The notes under the pieces are model-generated. The model was not told the origin of the DNA, made no database searches, and saw only the letters and a program-made list of their open reading frames with translations. From Mesorhizobium onobrychidis (GTDB lineage: Bacteria; Pseudomonadota; Alphaproteobacteria; Rhizobiales; Rhizobiaceae), in NCBI RefSeq assembly GCF_024707545.1, contig NZ_CP062229.1, positions 7,235,501 through 7,299,500 on the forward strand: a DNA stretch of 64,000 bases, written 5' to 3'. Shown one piece after another: positions 34,380 to 48,300 of the stretch (positions are counted from its first letter, which is position 1; the number at the start of each line of letters is the position of its first letter). Position numbers and translations under genes: made by a program.

Positions 34380-35126
34380 TCATGCCGCCAGCCGAGCAAT
34401 CCGCTGCAGCCGCCGCAGCGTGGTATCGTCCTGTAAAGCCTGCTGAAACAGCGAAATCTCCTGGTCAATGCGATCGCAGAGCGCGCCTGTGTCGCCCTTG
34501 AGCAGGTCGCGCGTCTGCAGCAGTGCGGCGACCGGCTTCTTGGCGAGTTGCCTGGCTCTGCCAAGTGCGGCTTCCTCGACATCGCCCACCACGATCTCCG
34601 TGACCAGGCCAAGCAACCTGGCGTCCTCGGCACTGAGCGTGTCGCCCAGGCAGAAGAAGCGGAAAGCGCCGGCATAACCGAGTTTCTGCGGCGCCAGGAT
34701 GCTGGTCGCCGCGTCCGGCACGAGGCCGAAATCGACGAACGGCACCCGGAACGTGCTTTCATCAGATGCGATCACCATGTCGCAATGGAACAGGATGGTG
34801 CAGCCGACGCCGACGGCGTCGCCATCGACACAGGCAAGGACCGGTTTCGGGAACGTCGCCAATGTGCGGAACATGTCGGTGACGGCGGCGATCAATCGTT
34901 GATGCTTGGTGGCGTCGAGGAATTCGGAAAAATCGCCGCCGAGGCAGAAGCAGCCGGCGAGGCCGCGCAGCACCACGACGCGCACATCATCGTCGATTGC
35001 GGCTTCGTGGAAGATCTTGGCCAGGCTTTCATAAGCTCGCCCGTCCAGCACGGGTCGGCCGTCTTCCGACGACACCGTGACAATCAGGGTATGATTCCGA
35101 AACTCTGTTTGCGGGTGGATGTTCAT
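34380..35126 (-). CDS. Crotonase family protein, enoyl-CoA isomerase type, in the luxI operon
   Basis: 248 residues of crotonase fold. The oxyanion-hole regions GLAGCFCLGGDFSEFLDA and DGDAVGVGCTILFHCD are recognisable. Aligned by eye with enoyl-CoA hydratase, the first catalytic Glu (GGGCEL) is Thr here (GVGCTI) and the second (PEILLG) is Phe (PFVDFG). The Asp in GLVPDAATS lies where PaaG-type enoyl-CoA isomerases have theirs. So it more likely shifts a double bond than adds water. Its ATG is 16 bases after the luxI stop with a GGAG site inside that gap, so it is translated from the luxI mRNA. It may supply or edit the acyl chain of the signal. Confidence 0.85.
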   Translation of the reverse strand: MNIHPQTEFRNHTLIVTVSSEDGRPVLDGRAYESLAKIFHEAAIDDDVRVVVLRGLAGCFCLGGDFSEFLDATKHQRLIAAVTDMFRTLATFPKPVLACVDGDAVGVGCTILFHCDMVIASDESTFRVPFVDFGLVPDAATSILAPQKLGYAGAFRFFCLGDTLSAEDARLLGLVTEIVVGDVEEAALGRARQLAKKPVAALLQTRDLLKGDTGALCDRIDQEISLFQQALQDDTTLRRLQRIARLAA

Positions 35127-35141
35127 GGCTGTCTCCAATTC

Positions 35142-35780
35142 TCACGAGGCCTGCCTCATTCCGAGCCTGTCGGGATATCCCCTGGCCAGCACCGGCGCGA
35201 AATGACTGCGACGCGAACGCACCACCTCAAGCGTATGCTCGTTGAAGGTGAGCAGTGTGGCGACGACCTGCTGGTTGCCATAGGTGCGCTGGTAGCCAAG
35301 CGGCTTCGCCAGGAAGTGCAACTGCAGCGCCCGCAGGACCCACATCGGCTCGAACTCGATGATCACCTGGTTGACGTTCCGCTTCAGCCCCCACTCGACG
35401 AAGCCGGCAATGAGCTCGGTGCCGACCGTCGAGACGCCGCGCTTGCCGTCACGAAATCCCGGCGCCACCGCGTAGCGGGTCAGTTCCCAAACGTTCGGGC
35501 CGGACGGTGGCGTCCCTTCATAGAGGTCCGCCAGCACCTCGGTCAGAAGATGCGCCCGCGTTGTCGGCAACATCCGCTGATAACCGGCGAGCTCGCCATT
35601 GCGGACGACGAGCTGATGCACCGCCTCGTCATGGTCGAACTGATCGATCTCAAGGCCATCGGGGCGCTGCAGGTCGGTCCACCCCATCTCCTCGACGAAA
35701 ATCTTGTAGCGCAATCGATGGACGGCCTCCCAAAGGTCGGGACGTTCCATAAGTTCCTGTGTGGTAAGGGAAAAAAGCAT
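35142..35780 (-). CDS. Acyl-homoserine-lactone synthase (LuxI family)
   Basis: 212 residues. The invariant residues of the family appear in order: Arg, Phe and Trp in RYKIFVEEMGW, the acidic pair in IDQFDHDEA, Arg in GYQRMLPT, and Glu and Arg in WELTRYAV. The C-terminal acyl-chain pocket includes FVEWGLKRNVNQVIIEFEP. It makes an acyl-homoserine lactone from S-adenosylmethionine and an acyl-carrier substrate; chain type cannot be told. It lies between luxR and the crotonase gene on the same strand. AGGAGACGGCAG precedes the ATG. A lux-box-like palindrome lies 54 bases upstream. Confidence 0.95.
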   Translation of the reverse strand: MLFSLTTQELMERPDLWEAVHRLRYKIFVEEMGWTDLQRPDGLEIDQFDHDEAVHQLVVRNGELAGYQRMLPTTRAHLLTEVLADLYEGTPPSGPNVWELTRYAVAPGFRDGKRGVSTVGTELIAGFVEWGLKRNVNQVIIEFEPMWVLRALQLHFLAKPLGYQRTYGNQQVVATLLTFNEHTLEVVRSRRSHFAPVLARGYPDRLGMRQAS

Positions 35781-35833
35781 CTGCCGTCTCCTAGGTTCAA
35801 TAGGAAGATACGGCCGGGCTGTCCCGAGAAAAT

Positions 35834-35847
35834 TACGCGATCACGTA
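35834..35847. promoter_or_regulatory. Candidate lux box upstream of luxI
   Basis: TACGCGATCACGTA is an inverted repeat with one mismatched pair, centred 60 bases before the luxI start codon. LuxR-type regulators bind such elements of about 18-20 bases overlapping the -35 region. The flanks are not symmetrical, so the assignment is tentative. Confidence 0.5.
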
Positions 35848-35877
35848 GGCAAGAATTTCTAGGCCGGCACGGCCGAG

Positions 35878-36609
35878 CTAGCTAATATAGCCGCGCCTTA
35901 TCGCTTCCGCGACCGCCTGCACCCGGTTGACGGCACCGAGTTTGCTTTTGGCGTTAAGAAGGTGTTTCTCTGACGTGTGTTCCGAAATGCCGAGAATCTG
36001 TGAAATCTCCCATTCGGACTTGCCGACGGCGGCCCATTGCATGCATTCGCGCTCACGCGGCGTCAGTTCGACGTGGTCGATGGTCTGGGCCGCCATCGTG
36101 TGGAGTTGCATGGCACGGCCGATCGCATAGGTCGCGGCCAGCGACACCAGTCCGAAATCGGCGCCAGACAATTCGACGGCTTCGCCGCCGAGCGACACCA
36201 TGACGATCTGGCCATCGAGCGTGACCAGCGGGAAGGCCAAACCGTCGCGCAGCTTGAATTCGCCGGCGTCGCCCATCACTTCGCCGCTGCTCTTGTCGAT
36301 GCGGATGCTCTGGGACGCCTCCCGCCACTGGAACGGCGCCTGAAGCTGCTTCATGTGGCTGACGACGGGGTCGTGGTCGACATAGTTGCGCGCCACATAG
36401 CGCTCCAGCCATTCTCCCGGCCACTCGCAAAGCAGCACATGGTCCTTTTGCTGGCCTCTTGGCGTGCCCGGTTGCGGAACCGTTCCGGCCATCAGCGCAG
36501 TCAGGCCGAACTCCGAGGTTATGCCAAGCAGCTTTTCGCAGACTGCGGCCGCCGTATTGGCGTGCTGCAGCTGATCTATGAATTCCAGTGTACGATCGAA
36601 GTGGCCCAT
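35878..36609 (-). CDS. LuxR family quorum-sensing regulator
   Basis: 243 residues. The autoinducer domain carries the family residues Trp and Tyr (WLERYVARNY), Asp and Pro (VDHDPVV), and Trp (PFQWREA). The C-terminal helix-turn-helix reads LTPRERECMQWAAVGKSEWE, ISQILGISEHTSEKHLLNAK. It should bind the signal made by the downstream synthase and activate its gene. It lies 97 bases upstream of luxI, both reading leftward. The intergenic region upstream (36610-36867) shows no other ORF. Confidence 0.94.
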   Translation of the reverse strand: MGHFDRTLEFIDQLQHANTAAAVCEKLLGITSEFGLTALMAGTVPQPGTPRGQQKDHVLLCEWPGEWLERYVARNYVDHDPVVSHMKQLQAPFQWREASQSIRIDKSSGEVMGDAGEFKLRDGLAFPLVTLDGQIVMVSLGGEAVELSGADFGLVSLAATYAIGRAMQLHTMAAQTIDHVELTPRERECMQWAAVGKSEWEISQILGISEHTSEKHLLNAKSKLGAVNRVQAVAEAIRRGYIS

Positions 36610-41539: not shown

Positions 41540-43759
41540 TCACGCCGCCTTCTTGGCCTCGCTCCTGGCATAGGGATCGAAGCGTTCGTAGAAAGTCTCG
41601 CCCTTTTCCGCCATGTCGAGCAGGAGCTTCGGCGCCTTGAACTCGGCGCCGTACTTCTTCTGCAGACCCTTGGCGATCTTGACGAATTTCTTTGCGCCGA
41701 TGCCGTCGATGTAGGACAGCACGCCGCCGGTAAAGGGCGCGAAGCCGAAAGCGAGGATCGAGCCGACATCGGCTTCGCGCGGATCGGTGACGATGCCCTC
41801 CTGCATCACCCGGGCCGCCTCCAATGCAATGGTGACCAGGAGCCGCTGCTTCAGTTCCTCATAGTCGACCTTTTCAGGCGCCAACTGCGGATAGAGATCC
41901 TTCAGACCCGGCCACAACTTCTTCTTGGCAGGCTTTTGCGGATAGTCGTAAAAACCCTTGCCGTTCTTGCGGCCAAAGCGGCCATGACTATCGACCAGCG
42001 TGTTGATCAGCGCCATCTGCTTCGGGTCGACCGCGTTTTCGCCGAGATCGCGCATGGTCTGCTTCATGATCTTCTGCGCGAGGTCGATCGCCGTTTCGTC
42101 CGTGAGCGCCAGAGGACCGACCGGCATGCCGGCGGCCTTCGCCGCATTCTCGATCATCGGCGCCGGAACGCCCTCGATGAGCATCTTGTAGGCTTCCGAC
42201 ATATAGCGCAGCACGCAGCGGTTGACGTAGAAGCCTCGCGTGTCGTTGACGACGATCGGCGTCTTCTTGATGGCGCGGACGAAGTCGATCGCGGTGGCCA
42301 GCGCCTTGTCGCCCGTCTTCTTGCCCAAAATGATCTCGACCAGCATCATCTTGTCGACCGGCGAGAAGAAATGGATGCCGATGAAATTCTTCGGCCGCGC
42401 TGAATTCTTCGCCAGCGACGTGATCGGGATGGTAGACGTATTCGAGGCGAAGACCGCCGCCGGCTTCAGCATGGCCTCCGCCTTTTCGGTGGCGTCCTTC
42501 TTGACGCCCGAATCCTCGAACACCGCCTCGATCACCAGGTCGCAGCCTGCGAGGTCGGCATAGTCGGCCGTCGGCGTGATCAGCGACAGCAGCCTGTCCT
42601 TGTCCTCCGGCTTGGCGCGGCCCTTCCTGACCTGATCCGAGATCAGGCTGTCCGAATGCGCCTTGCCCTTGGCGGCAGCTTCCATGTCGCGGTCGAGCAG
42701 CGCCACCGGAATGCCGGCCCTGGCCGTAACATAGGCGATGCCGGCGCCCATGAAACCGGCGCCGAGCACGCCGATCTTCTTGAACTTGGTTTCCGGCGCG
42801 CCGGCCGGGCGGCGAGCACCCTTGTTCAGTTCCTGCAGCGACACGAACAGCGAGCGGATCATCGCCGCCGCTTCTCTTGTCTGCATGATCTCGGTGAAAT
42901 AGCGCTGCTCGATGCGCAAAGCGGTGTCGAACGGCACCAGCAGGCCTTCATAGACGCATTTCAGGATGGCGGCGGCGGCAGGATAGTTGCCATAGGTCTC
43001 GCGACGCAGGATGGCGATTGCCGGTGGCCACAGATTGGCGCCGGCCACCGAATAGATCGGGCCGCCGGGCAGCTTGAAGCCCTTCTCGTCCCACGGCGCC
43101 ACCGGCTTCAAGCCATTTTTGATCATGGCTTTGGCGGTTTCGACCAGCTTTTGCGGCTCGGCGATCTCGTGGATCAGGCCCATCGACTTGGCCTTCTGCG
43201 GCGACAGCGTCTGGCCGGAGGTCAGCATCTGCAGCGCCTGCTGCTGGTCGGTTAGCCGCGGCACGCGCTGGGTGCCGCCGGCGCCTGGGAAAATGCCGAT
43301 CTTCACTTCGGGGAGCGCCATCCTGACCTTGTCGGAATCGGCCGCGACACGACCATGGCAAGCGAGCGACAGCTCGAACGCGCCGCCCATGCAGGTGCCG
43401 TTGATCGCCGACACCCATGGCTTGCCTGAGGTTTCCAGCTTGCGGAACAGGCCGGTCATATAGCCGGCGTTGTCGAACAGCGCCTTGGTCGCCTTGTCCA
43501 GGTCCTTGGCTTTGTCAGCGGCGAAGGTCGCCAACATCTTTTGCAGCATGGTGATGTCGGCGCCGCCCGAGAAACTATCCTTGCCGGAGGTGATCACCGC
43601 CCCCTTTATCGCCGCGTCGCTCGCCACCTTGTCGACAATGGAGTTCAGTTCCAGCATCGCTTCTTCGGTGAAGACGTTCATCGACCGGCCAGGCATGTCC
43701 CAGGTGACCAGCGCGATGCCGTCGGCGTCGATGTCGAGGGTGAAATTGGTATAGCTCAT
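41540..43759 (-). CDS. fadB: Fatty-acid oxidation complex FadB: enoyl-CoA hydratase and 3-hydroxyacyl-CoA dehydrogenase
   Basis: 739 residues. N-terminal hydratase domain has both catalytic glutamates ([11 protein letters not shown] and [18 protein letters not shown]). The dehydrogenase domain begins with the NAD motif [20 protein letters not shown] and has the catalytic His in [18 protein letters not shown]. It performs hydration and oxidation in beta-oxidation. Its start is 14 bases downstream of the fadA stop, so it is the last gene of the operon. Faces the repressor gene. Confidence 0.96.
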
Positions 43760-43773
43760 CGGTCTCTCTCCCG

Positions 43774-44982
43774 TCAGACGCGTTCGATGATCGTTGCGGT
43801 GCCCATGCCGGCGCCGATGCAGAGCGTCACCAGCGCGGTATCGAGGTCGCGACGCTCAAGTTCGTCCAGCACCGTTCCGAAGATCATCGCACCCGTGGCG
43901 CCGAGCGGATGGCCCATGGCGATGGCGCCGCCATTGACGTTGATCCTGTCGTGCGAAATATCGAAAGCCTGCATGTAGCGCAGCACCACCGAGGCGAAAG
44001 CCTCGTTGAGCTCGAACAGATCGATGTCCGACAGCTTCATCCTGGCGCGCTTCAGCAGCTTCTCGGTCACGTCTACCGGACCGGTCAGCATCAGAACCGG
44101 TTCCGAACCGATATTGGCGAATGCACGGATGCGCGCGCGCGGCTTCAGGCCGATCGTCTTTCCAGCCTTCTTCGAGCCGAGCAGAACGGCCGCCGCGCCG
44201 TCGACGATACCGGACGAATTGCCGGCGTGGTGGACGTGGTTGACCTCTTCCACCTCGGGATGCTTCTGCACCGCGACGGCATCGAAGCCGCCCATTTCGC
44301 CGGGCATGACGAAAGACGGGTTGAGTGCCGCCAGCGACTGCATATCGGTCGCAGGCCGCATGTGCTCATCGTGGTCGAGGATGGTCAGGCCGTTCTGGTC
44401 CTTGATCGAGATCACCGATTTCTTGAAGCGGCCCTCGCCCCAGGCTTTGGCAGCACGCTTCTGGCTCTCGACCGCATAGGCGTCGACGTCGTCGCGCGAA
44501 AAGCCGTATTTCGTGGCGATCAGGTCGGCCGAGATGCCTTGCGGCACGAACCAGCCCGGCAGGCCAACCGAGGGGTCCATGAACCAGGCGCCACCGGATG
44601 CGCCCATGCCGACGCGCGACATCGATTCGACGCCGCCGGCGATGACAATCTCGTCGGCGCCTTGCGCAATTTTGGCTGCGCCGAAATTGATGGCGTCCAG
44701 GCCAGAGGCGCAGAAGCGCGAGATCTGCATGCCGGGCGCTTTCGTGTCGTAGCCCGCCTCGAAGGCGGCGGCGCGCGGAATAACAGACCCCGCCTCGCCC
44801 ACCGGGTCGACGCAACCGAAGATGATGTCGTCGACGGTGCCGGTATCCAGCCCATTGCGGTCGCGGATCGCCTCGAGCACTTTGGCGCCGAGCCGCACCG
44901 CCGGCACCTCGTGCAGCGAGCCATCCTTCTTGCCCCTGCCGCGCGGCGTGCGCACGGCGTCATAGACATAAGCTTCGGCCAT
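43774..44982 (-). CDS. fadA: Acetyl-CoA C-acyltransferase (thiolase) FadA
   Basis: 402 residues. Nucleophilic Cys in [20 protein letters not shown], conserved His in [17 protein letters not shown] and second Cys in [12 protein letters not shown]. It carries out the last, thiolytic step of beta-oxidation. The ATG at 44982 has an AGGAG site; an upstream start near 45030 would overlap the preceding gene. It is 31 bases after the acyl-CoA dehydrogenase stop. Confidence 0.96.
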
Positions 44983-45013
44983 TTTCCTGCTCCTTGGTTT
45001 GCCGAAAAGTCGC

Positions 45014-46183
45014 TCAGAGAGAGCGTCCAATCAGCAATTTCATGATCTCGTTGGTGCCGCCGTAGATACGCTGGACGCGGGCGTCGCGGAACATGCGGGC
45101 GATCGGATACTCATTCATGTAGCCATAGCCGCCATGCAATTGAAGGCATTCGTCGACGACTTTTCCCTGCAGGTCGGACAGCCAGTATTTGGCCATCGAG
45201 GCCGTCACCGGGTCGAGGCCTCCATTGATATGGCGGGCGACGCAGTCATTGTAGAAGACGCGGCCGATGGTCGCTTCGGTCTTCAGTTCGGCCAGCTTGA
45301 ACTGGGTATTCTGGAATTCGATAATCGCTTTGCCGAAGGCTTTGCGCTCCTTGACGTAGTCGATGGTCTGCGCCAGCGCCCGCTCGATCATGGCGATGGC
45401 GCCGGTGCCGATCTGCAGCCGCTCCTGCGGCAATTGTTGCATCAGTTGGACGAAGCCCTGGCCTTCCTCGTGACCGAGCAGATTGGAGGTCGGCACGCGC
45501 ATATCGTTGAAGAACAGTTCCGACGTGTCGTTGGCCTTGAGCCCGATCTTGTCGAGGTTGCGGCCGCGCTCGAACCCTTCCACCTCGTCGGTCTCGACGA
45601 CGATCAGCGAAGTGCCCTTGGCGCCTTTCTCCGGATCGGTCTTGGTGACGATTATGATGAAGTTGGCGAGCTGGCCGTTGGTGATGAAGGTCTTCGAGCC
45701 GTTGACCTTGTATTGGTTGCCATCCTTCTCGGCTCGCGTCTTGACGCCCTGCAGGTCGGAGCCGGCGCCGGGCTCGGTCATGGCGATGGCGCCGATCAAC
45801 TCGCCGGTCGCCAGTTTCGGCAGCCATTTCTTCTTCTGCTCCTCCGAGCCGTAGTGGAGGATGTAAGGGGCGACGATCGAACTATGCAGGCCGATGCCGA
45901 AACCGTCGACGCCGACATGGCCGATCGCCTCGATGATGGCGCTCTCATGCGCGAATGTCCCGCCCGAACCGCCATATTCCTCCGGCATCGAGGCACAGAG
46001 CAGACCGGCCGCACCTGCCTTCAGCCAGCTCTCGCGGTCGACCATCTCGTTCTTCTCGAACTCGTCATAGCGCGGCGCGATCTCTTCCGACATGAAGCGG
46101 TGCGCCATGTCGTAGAGCATGCCCACCTCGTCCGCCGCCCAGGCGGGTTTCGGGAGGCCGAGGATTTCGGCGGGGTTGGTCAT
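45014..46183 (-). CDS. Acyl-CoA dehydrogenase
   Basis: 389 residues, acyl-CoA dehydrogenase fold. FAD and substrate motifs AIAMTEPGAGSDLQGVKTRA, KVNGSKTFITNGQLANFIII and the C-terminal QLHGGYGYMNEYPIARMFRD with the catalytic Glu in IYGGTNEIMKLLIGRSL are clear. It begins with DMAHRFMSEEIAPRYDEFEK. It introduces the first double bond into acyl-CoA. It lies between a RIME-like repeat and fadA, in the same direction. Confidence 0.95.
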   Translation of the reverse strand: MTNPAEILGLPKPAWAADEVGMLYDMAHRFMSEEIAPRYDEFEKNEMVDRESWLKAGAAGLLCASMPEEYGGSGGTFAHESAIIEAIGHVGVDGFGIGLHSSIVAPYILHYGSEEQKKKWLPKLATGELIGAIAMTEPGAGSDLQGVKTRAEKDGNQYKVNGSKTFITNGQLANFIIIVTKTDPEKGAKGTSLIVVETDEVEGFERGRNLDKIGLKANDTSELFFNDMRVPTSNLLGHEEGQGFVQLMQQLPQERLQIGTGAIAMIERALAQTIDYVKERKAFGKAIIEFQNTQFKLAELKTEATIGRVFYNDCVARHINGGLDPVTASMAKYWLSDLQGKVVDECLQLHGGYGYMNEYPIARMFRDARVQRIYGGTNEIMKLLIGRSL

Positions 46184-46203
46184 GCTATTTCTCCCGCGCC
46201 AAC

Positions 46204-46408
46204 GCTCCCCTCCCCCTCGAGGGGAGGGTGGCCGCGAAGCGACCGGGTGGGGTCGCCGGTGGCGTGCTCGATCTTATCTTTTACAACCTGCGCCATATGC
46301 CACGGCATTGCGATTATTCTCCTCCCAAGGCATGTCACCAGTCGGCGCGCTGCACGCAGGACCCCTCCCGGCCCTTCGGGCCAACCTCCCCTCGAGGGGG
46401 AGGGGAAC
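46204..46408. repeat. RIME-like intergenic palindromic element inside the fad cluster
   Basis: Outer arms TCCCCTCCCCCTCGAGGGGA and its reverse complement at 46383-46407 enclose a 150-base centre. The internal parts GCGAAGCGACCGGGTGGGGT and CTCCCGGCCCTTCGGGCCAA form further hairpins. It resembles the element at 20.1 kb in design but with different bases in the arms. It separates the two acyl-CoA dehydrogenase genes. Confidence 0.8.
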
Positions 46409-46415
46409 GTCGAGC

Positions 46416-48212
46416 TTAGAACGCTTCCGCCGGCAGCGCCATTAGCGTGTCCGCGCCGCTGGAGATGCGGGCGAGGTGCGCCGACGTCTCCGGCATGATC
46501 CGCTCCATGAAGAAGCGCGCCGTCACCAGCTTGCTGTCGTAGAAGGCAGAAGAACCATTGGCGTCATTCGCCAATTTCGCCCCGGCTGCCTTGGCCATCT
46601 GCGCCCACATATAGCCCAGTGCCACCAGGCCGAAGAGATGCATGTAGTCGGTCGAGGCGGCACCGGCGTTGTCGGGCTTGGTCATGCCGTTCTGCATCAG
46701 CCACATCGTCGCCGCCTGCAGATCGTTGAGGCCCTTCTTCAGCGCCTTGGTAAAGGGCGCCATCTTCTCGTCAGTGCGGTTCTCTTCGCAGAACTCGCCG
46801 ACCTCCTTGAAGAAGGCCTGCACGGCGCGGCCGCCATTCAAGGCCAGTTTGCGGCCGACGAGGTCGAGCGCCTGGATGCCGTTGGCGCCCTCGTATATCA
46901 TGGCGATGCGGGCATCGCGCACGAACTGGCTCATGCCGTGCTCTTCGATATAGCCGTGGCCGCCGAACACTTGCTGCGCCATCACCGCGTGGTCGAAGCC
47001 CTTGTCGGTGAGCACGCCCTTGACCACCGGCGTCATCAGGCCGGTGTAGTCGTCGGCGGCCTGGCGGTCCTTGTCGTCACTGGCACGGTGCGCGATGTCC
47101 GACTTGATCGCCGTCCACAGCGCCAGCGCGCGGCCGGCCTCGTTGAAGGCCTTCATAGTCATCAGGCTGCGGCGGATGTCGGGATGGACGATGATCGGAT
47201 CGGCCTTCTTGTCCGGCGCCTTCGGCCCGGACAGCGAGCGGCCCTGCAGGCGATCCTTGGCATAGGACACAGCGTTCTGGTAGGCGACCTCCGACAGAGA
47301 GAGCCCTTGCAGGCCGACGCCGAGCCGGGCCTCGTTCATCATCGTGAACATGGCCTTCAGCCCGCCATTGGCGTCGCCGAGCAGCATGCCTTGCGCCTCG
47401 TCATAGTTCATGACGCAGGTCGAATTGCCATGGATGCCCATCTTCTCCTCGATCGAGCCGCAGGAGACGGTGTTCTTCTCGCCCGGATTGCCGGATGCAT
47501 CGAGCTTGAGCTTCGGCACGATGAACAGAGAAATACCCTTCACGCCTTCCGGTGCGCCCTCGATGCGGGCCAGCACGAGGTGGACGATGTTGTCCGACAT
47601 GTCGTGCTCGCCGGCCGAGATGAATATCTTCTGGCCTGAAATCCTGTAGGTGCCGTCTCCATTGGGAACCGCCTTGGTGCGCAGCAGGCCGAGATCGGTG
47701 CCGCAATGCGGCTCGGTCAGGTTCATGGTGCCGGTCCAGATGCCCTCGACCAGCTTCGGCAGCCATGTCGCCTTCTGCTCGTCGGTGCCATGGGTAATGA
47801 TCGCCGCGATCGCGCCCTGCGTCAGGCCGGGATACATCATCAGCGACATGTTGGCCGAAACCATATACTCGGAAACAGCGGTATGCACCGCGTAAGGCAG
47901 ACCCTGGCCGCCAAATTCGATGGGTGCGGCCAGCCCCATCCAGCCGCCGTCGCGATACTGGTCGAAGGCCTCCTTGAAGCCTTTCGGCGTCGTCACCGAA
48001 CCGTCGTCATGGCGCACGCAGCCTTGCATATCGCCGACGCGGTTCAGCGGCTGCATGACGTTTTCGGCGAGCTTGGCGCCTTCGGCGAGGATGGCCTCGA
48101 CCACATCCGGCGTCGCGTCGGAAAATCCGGGAAGATTGGAATAGCGCTGGTAGCGCAGTACCTCGTTCAGCACGAACAGCGTGTCCTGAACCGGCGCCCT
48201 GTAGATCGGCAT
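46416..48212 (-). CDS. Acyl-CoA dehydrogenase with C-terminal domain (AcdA/FadE type)
   Basis: 598 residues. Begins [20 protein letters not shown], with acyl-CoA dehydrogenase motifs [20 protein letters not shown] and FISAGEHD, and the catalytic Glu in [20 protein letters not shown]. The extra C-terminal domain (about 120 residues) is the DUF1974-like part typical of the long bacterial enzymes. The ATG at 48212 has a GGAGG site. It is the first gene after a MerR-type operator and promoter, and probably is transcribed with the downstream dehydrogenase, fadA and fadB. Confidence 0.94.
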
Positions 48213-48300
48213 GCGTTTCCTCCACCATGCGGCCTTGGCTCCGAAATCAAGCCCCAGAAAATGGATCAGGGACAGCATGCGGACCAATGTTCAGGTCGGG

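Follow-up and report, generated by a model that had tools for sequence, protein, structure and literature searches.

The luxR-luxI-crotonase circuit of Mesorhizobium onobrychidis

What does a crotonase contribute to a quorum-sensing circuit when its gene lies directly behind that of the signal synthase? This question is raised by a locus of Mesorhizobium onobrychidis, within a 64,000-nucleotide stretch of contig NZ_CP062229.1 (the window) from a genome of 7.55 Mb in two contigs. Three genes on the minus strand encode a LuxR-type receptor, a LuxI-type acyl-homoserine lactone synthase and a protein of the crotonase superfamily. The best explanation for the locus as a whole, to which we give a probability of about 0.55, is a quorum-sensing circuit with a dedicated crotonase of the enoyl-CoA isomerase (ECI) type that would make a conjugated precursor for the signal.

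Pfam and sequence comparison identified the receptor gene (35878..36609, 243 amino acids; PF03472, E = 7.2e-23, and PF00196, E = 2.8e-16) and the synthase gene (35142..35780, 212 amino acids; PF00765, E = 1.3e-16) as orthologues of R1 and I1 of Mesorhizobium japonicum. The crotonase gene (34380..35126, 248 amino acids from its ATG; PF00378, E = 6.4e-35) is the orthologue of mlr5639 of the same species. All three genes lie on one strand, in the order of the Mesorhizobium R1-I1-crotonase circuit. The final base of the luxI stop is 35142, and the A of the crotonase ATG, at 35126, is the 16th base past it; the 15-nt gap between them (35127..35141, minus strand) contains a GGAG at 35136-35133. An alternative TTG start at 35138, chosen by the listing of open reading frames, would add four residues. 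This arrangement bears out the operon link of the original prediction, which had placed the crotonase start 16 bases past luxI with its ribosome site in the gap.

Upstream, a lux-box inverted repeat with two mismatches to TTACGTGATCACGTAA occupies 35833..35848. Its centre lies about 60 bp before luxI, compared with about 61.5 bp in the cited part of the M. japonicum paper, and it is the sole site in the window with at most four mismatches to the lux-box consensus. From this box, LuxR and the signal would switch on luxI and the crotonase gene.

The circuit is almost certainly the Mesorhizobium R1-I1-crotonase circuit, judging by its genes. In the passages cited from the 2023 study of M. japonicum MAFF 303099 (PMC10470506), R1, I1 and mlr5639 are the same three genes, with the same order, direction and lux-box position and the crotonase directly 3' of luxI; the gap between luxI and the crotonase gene is reported there as 8 bp, compared with 15 nt here. 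The purified signal of that circuit is N-[(2E,4E)-2,4-dodecadienoyl]-homoserine lactone (2E,4E-C12:2-HSL), to which R1 responds very selectively, and I1 was placed in the acyl-CoA-using group of LuxI proteins. Deletion of mlr5639 left little signal, and a plasmid copy brought it back. That an unsaturated signal depends on the crotonase, a possibility raised by the original prediction, had thus already been demonstrated for the M. japonicum orthologue. On the role of the crotonase, the authors commit, in the same passages, only to a need for a CoA substrate and call for further biochemical work. The circuit, the signal and the need for the crotonase gene are therefore already known from relatives, while the precursor and the reaction are proposals of this analysis. 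We found no paper that assigns the reaction of a luxI-linked crotonase in the open-licence PMC literature (titles, abstract starts and cited passages). The comparison presented here narrows the question raised in the cited passages of PMC10470506 to one proposed reaction, one residue and one candidate precursor.

For this strain we infer the same signal, the isomerase reaction and its precursor. The opposite, that it makes a signal other than 2E,4E-C12:2-HSL despite its orthologous genes, is very improbable. The three genes are 89-91% identical to those of locus L058 (M. loti DSM 2626), presumably the NZP 2213 strain. According to the cited passages of PMC10470506, MAFF 303099 made 2E,4E-C12:2-HSL, in a specific bioassay NZP 2213 was active at the elution position of this signal, and AP09 produced a labelled peak there too. 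Among the loci compared, the nearest relative by the three genes is Mesorhizobium temperatum (receptor 100%, synthase 100% and crotonase 99.6% identity).

Active-site residues of the crotonase

To place the crotonase, we aligned it with Escherichia coli PaaF and PaaG, the FadB-type protein of the window, 26 homologues not linked to luxI and the eight PF00378 proteins found in its own genome. Thr110 (codon 34797..34799) and Phe130 (34737..34739) stand in the two columns of the hydratase glutamates, and Asp138 (GAC, 34713..34715; all on the minus strand) stands in the column of the PaaG aspartate, as the original prediction had read by eye. Thr/Phe/Asp was found in 105 of 105 luxI-linked rows (L108 left out; L002 and L083 are one locus, giving 104 distinct loci), and the nearest unlinked homologues have Thr/Phe/Glu in 25 of 26 cases. 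This places the enzyme on the side of the enoyl-CoA isomerases and not with the hydratases or the dienoyl-CoA isomerases (DCI), which carry Asp/Glu/Asp. No hydratase glutamate and a single acidic residue in the third column is also the residue pattern of the delta3,delta2-enoyl-CoA isomerases. We conclude that the crotonase is probably an acyl-CoA double-bond isomerase.

The match of the AlphaFold model (mean predicted local distance difference test score, pLDDT, 91.8) to enoyl-CoA isomerases covers almost the whole chain. The hydratase glutamates were not restored by structural comparison, as far as whole-chain matches, as opposed to a residue-by-residue superposition, can tell. The top structural row was a CDY domain, within 1 Z of the isomerases, and because of this tie the structural rank was not used.

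Several named families were considered and rejected. An enoyl-CoA hydratase was rejected since both catalytic glutamates are absent. PaaG was rejected on its model score (TIGR02280, 94.8 bits against a cut-off of 345.15); E. coli PaaG has the identical Thr/Phe/Asp pattern, but at about 25% identity it is not the closest relative. The PaaG proteins of E. coli and Thermus thermophilus (3hrx, 6sla) also differ from the luxI-linked crotonase in substrates and gene context. A DCI was rejected on Thr/Phe/Asp against the Asp/Glu/Asp triad of six bacterial DCI-like rows, one of which (L212) has DCI as its best PDB matches. DCI (1dci, 2vre) differ by the same triad; their product is 2,4-dienoyl-CoA, and the last triad aspartate of DCI-like proteins falls in the Asp138 column. 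The nearest named model, NF004681 (PRK06023), scored 185.8 bits, below its cut-off of 282, compared with 434.8 for the paralogue L136 of the same genome, a housekeeping isomerase-like protein with Thr/Phe/Glu. From delta3,delta2-enoyl-CoA isomerases such as Bosea BoECI (6lvo) and human PECI/ECI2 (2f6q) the crotonase differs by its operon with luxI and by its Asp, the third column of these chains being Glu in five of five cases (2f6q was not among the residues compared). Pseudomonas aeruginosa OdaA (7bor) also has Glu in this column; we found no activity for OdaA in the literature searched. A further paralogue, L133 (Glu/Glu/Asp), was rejected as a DCI: the model closest to it is crotonobetainyl-CoA hydratase (312.4 bits, cut-off 500), and among solved chains EchA1_1 and carnitinyl-CoA dehydratases come nearest.

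Crotonases that shape unsaturated fatty quorum signals, as proposed here, are known in RpfF, likened by function and not by sequence, and P. aeruginosa DspI. The DspI paper proposes that DspI dehydrates and uses two glutamates to separate hydratases from monofunctional ECI or DCI; DspI depends on these glutamates, which the luxI-linked crotonase lacks, and a DspI-type signal crotonase was rejected as well. These enzymes also give reason to consider that the crotonase supplies acyl-CoA in some other way, as a hydratase or dehydratase acting on 3-hydroxy-4-enoyl-CoA or as a hydrolase, with no double-bond shift. The superfamily is catalytically diverse, RpfF and DspI are crotonases making other quorum signals, and the commitment in the cited M. 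japonicum passages (PMC10470506) goes no further than the CoA substrate. However, the very glutamates by which the DspI paper recognizes hydratases are both absent from every one of the 105 linked rows, making this supply role quite unlikely.

Linkage of luxI and the crotonase gene across genomes

A sample of 394 genomes from the family gave LuxI matches of at least 71% identity in 24 genomes (next 49% and lower) and crotonase matches of at least 55% identity in 24 genomes (next 43% and lower); for the crotonase, mostly six first-look candidates were scored per genome. These are the same 24 genomes, from nine genera, and in each of them the two genes are neighbours. The succession of luxI and this crotonase, which the original prediction had proposed to look for elsewhere, thus accompanies this luxI type throughout the sampled family.

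A sample of 61 genomes of the genus gave 52 with both genes, adjacent in every case by their listed coordinates, eight with neither and one (G785) with luxI alone. R1-I1 was further reported, in the cited passages of PMC10470506, in some 90% of almost 500 Mesorhizobium genomes, with homologues in two other genera. The expectation that related bacteria would neither make nor read the signal is not supported by these numbers. Entries overlapping between the two genome collections were kept in.

Among the best 80 of 142 related loci, receptor, synthase and crotonase genes follow in the same order in all 80 (the receptor match is partial in L068). Mesorhizobium accounts for 78 of them, a Rhizobiales bacterium and an Alphaproteobacteria bacterium for the other two. 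PPK2 (79/80), a solute-binding protein (79/80) and LysS (77/80) are kept in the flanks, which together with the gene order indicates a stable chromosomal locus. Distance matrices over 21 loci correlate at r = 0.82 (synthase-crotonase), 0.865 (receptor-crotonase) and 0.892 (receptor-synthase). The ratio of nonsynonymous to synonymous substitution rates (dN/dS) is 0.08-0.11 for the crotonase in eight of eight chosen pairs, 0.08-0.11 for the receptor and 0.02-0.14 for the synthase. The crotonase dN/dS and the adjacency in 24 of 24 genomes argue for more than a chance association. They also bear on whether the crotonase could be a non-catalytic acyl-CoA carrier or a partner feeding LuxI: selection is purifying in 8/8 pairs and the catalytic column is acidic in 105/105 linked rows, which makes this hardly credible.

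The crotonase is not a general partner of luxI. Of the 16 loci whose LuxI is 39-49% identical, only L108 shows a crotonase match (at L107-L112 the flank is only about 1.5 kb long, and at L119 and L120 the sequence runs out within 2 kb of luxI on one side). In a class sample, nine of 385 genomes, the window's own included, had a LuxI match at E <= 1e-20, and a crotonase match at E <= 1e-3 was absent from the other eight LuxI loci (2.5-3.6 kb each). The L108 crotonase (L108:436-1257) is 38-39% identical, lies beside a 47% identical LuxI and carries Glu where the luxI-linked rows have the third-column Asp. In the tree it is sister to the luxI-linked clade on a long branch; the tree contains long branches in general, and L108 and PaaF are of odd composition.

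A possible route from membrane lipids to the signal

A candidate route begins with 18:1 omega-7, the main membrane fatty acid. Three beta-oxidation cycles would yield 5Z-C12:1-CoA, which an acyl-CoA dehydrogenase would convert to 2E,5Z-C12:2-CoA, the most likely precursor for the crotonase. With Asp138 as its single acid/base, the crotonase would take a proton off C4 and put a proton onto C6, moving the 5,6 bond to 4,5, and LuxI would join the product, 2E,4E-dodecadienoyl-CoA, to homoserine lactone. Such an omega-7 route would account for the chain length of 12 in the published signal and for the positions of its two double bonds. In the cited part of the T. thermophilus PaaG study, Asp136 is the proton shuttle and moves the proton between C2 and C4 (PMC7497051). 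According to the passages cited, Roseobacter authors had weighed a shift of the omega-7 bond into conjugation, giving 2E,4E (PMC6356624), and summed feature 8 made up 49.2, 65.3 and 68.8% in three Mesorhizobium strains (PMC11473501). We consider the specific 2,5-to-2,4 shift from omega-7 lipids plausible, at slightly under even odds. More tentatively, the crotonase may be an isomerase dedicated to turning 2,5- into 2,4-dienoyl-CoA in one step, an ECI re-tooled partly by the Glu-to-Asp exchange so that the proton goes to C6 and not C2.

Several points weigh against an isomerase of this kind. The characterized route from 2,5- to 2,4-dienoyl-CoA takes two enzymes: in mammals, 2,5-dienoyl-CoA from odd-position bonds can be converted to the 3,5 form by ECI and then to the 2,4 form by DCI, as given in the cited part of PMC2697383. 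The crotonase is without the Asp/Glu/Asp triad of DCI-like proteins, and the exchange of Glu for Asp is not diagnostic, as Asp also occupies the third column of the unlinked homologue L168; with Glu at this place in its sister L165, the swap must have arisen more than once. The natural Roseobacter product described in the cited passages is the unshifted 2E,5Z-C12:2-HSL (PMC6356624), and summed feature 8 does not tell omega-7 from omega-6. We found no biochemical test of any luxI-linked crotonase in the open-licence PMC literature.

The two-enzyme mammalian route also suggests that the crotonase performs one half only (3,5 to 2,4, as a DCI would, or 2,5 to 3,5), with L136 or FadB doing the other; L136 is, after all, a separate Thr/Phe/Glu paralogue in the genome. 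We regard this division of labour as unlikely. Two of the three DCI acidic residues are missing from the crotonase, no Asp/Glu/Asp member was found among the eight PF00378 proteins of the genome, and nothing in the genome scores above 148.9 bits on the DCI-like model NF004794 (cut-off 308). A one-step shift from 2,5 to 2,4 therefore needs fewer parts. E. coli is described as without a dienoyl-CoA isomerase in the part of PMC9329746 cited here. If the one-step isomerase is correct, a lipid-breakdown enzyme has been turned into a signal-shaping one, an ordinary intermediate in the beta-oxidation of omega-7 membrane fatty acids is diverted into the signal, and the bacterium's own membrane lipids supply it with a private signal.

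A natural deletion variant and the lux box

The Mesorhizobium genome with luxI alone (G785; locus L217, C7:52500-63500) has full-length receptor and synthase matches and an open LuxI frame. Past luxI, a remnant of about 50 to 60 C-terminal crotonase codons is broken by a TAA. By its sequence, this is a natural variant that has kept luxI and lost most of the crotonase gene. Its best lux-box match has 8/16 mismatches. Among 105 loci with a neighbouring crotonase, 13, L108 included, likewise have a box with six or seven mismatches, and the link between the losses of box and crotonase in G785 is therefore weak. A lux box with at most four mismatches within 160 nt before luxI was found in 89/105 loci compared with 5/2100 shuffles (for spacing and box counts, L083 was left out and L108 kept).

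A genome-wide scan gave 12 sites with at most three mismatches, compared with six for a reversed control pattern, and was thus uninformative. The sole other genome site with at most two mismatches, G000:C1:3267011-3267026 (L199), may be a target or a chance match.

Other genes in the window and the genome

About 6 kb from luxI, the minus strand of the window carries beta-oxidation genes (41540-48287) for a FadB-type protein, a thiolase and an acyl-CoA dehydrogenase, as identified by Pfam; the reading frame at 45014-46183 is, named by eye only, a second acyl-CoA dehydrogenase-like gene. FadB was present in 12 of the 80 related loci, whose flanks stop near that point. The genome also contains a second LuxI gene (L001, G000:C1:6629833-6630345; PF00765, E = 9.7e-49), at a locus that includes a LuxR-like gene with 30% identity.
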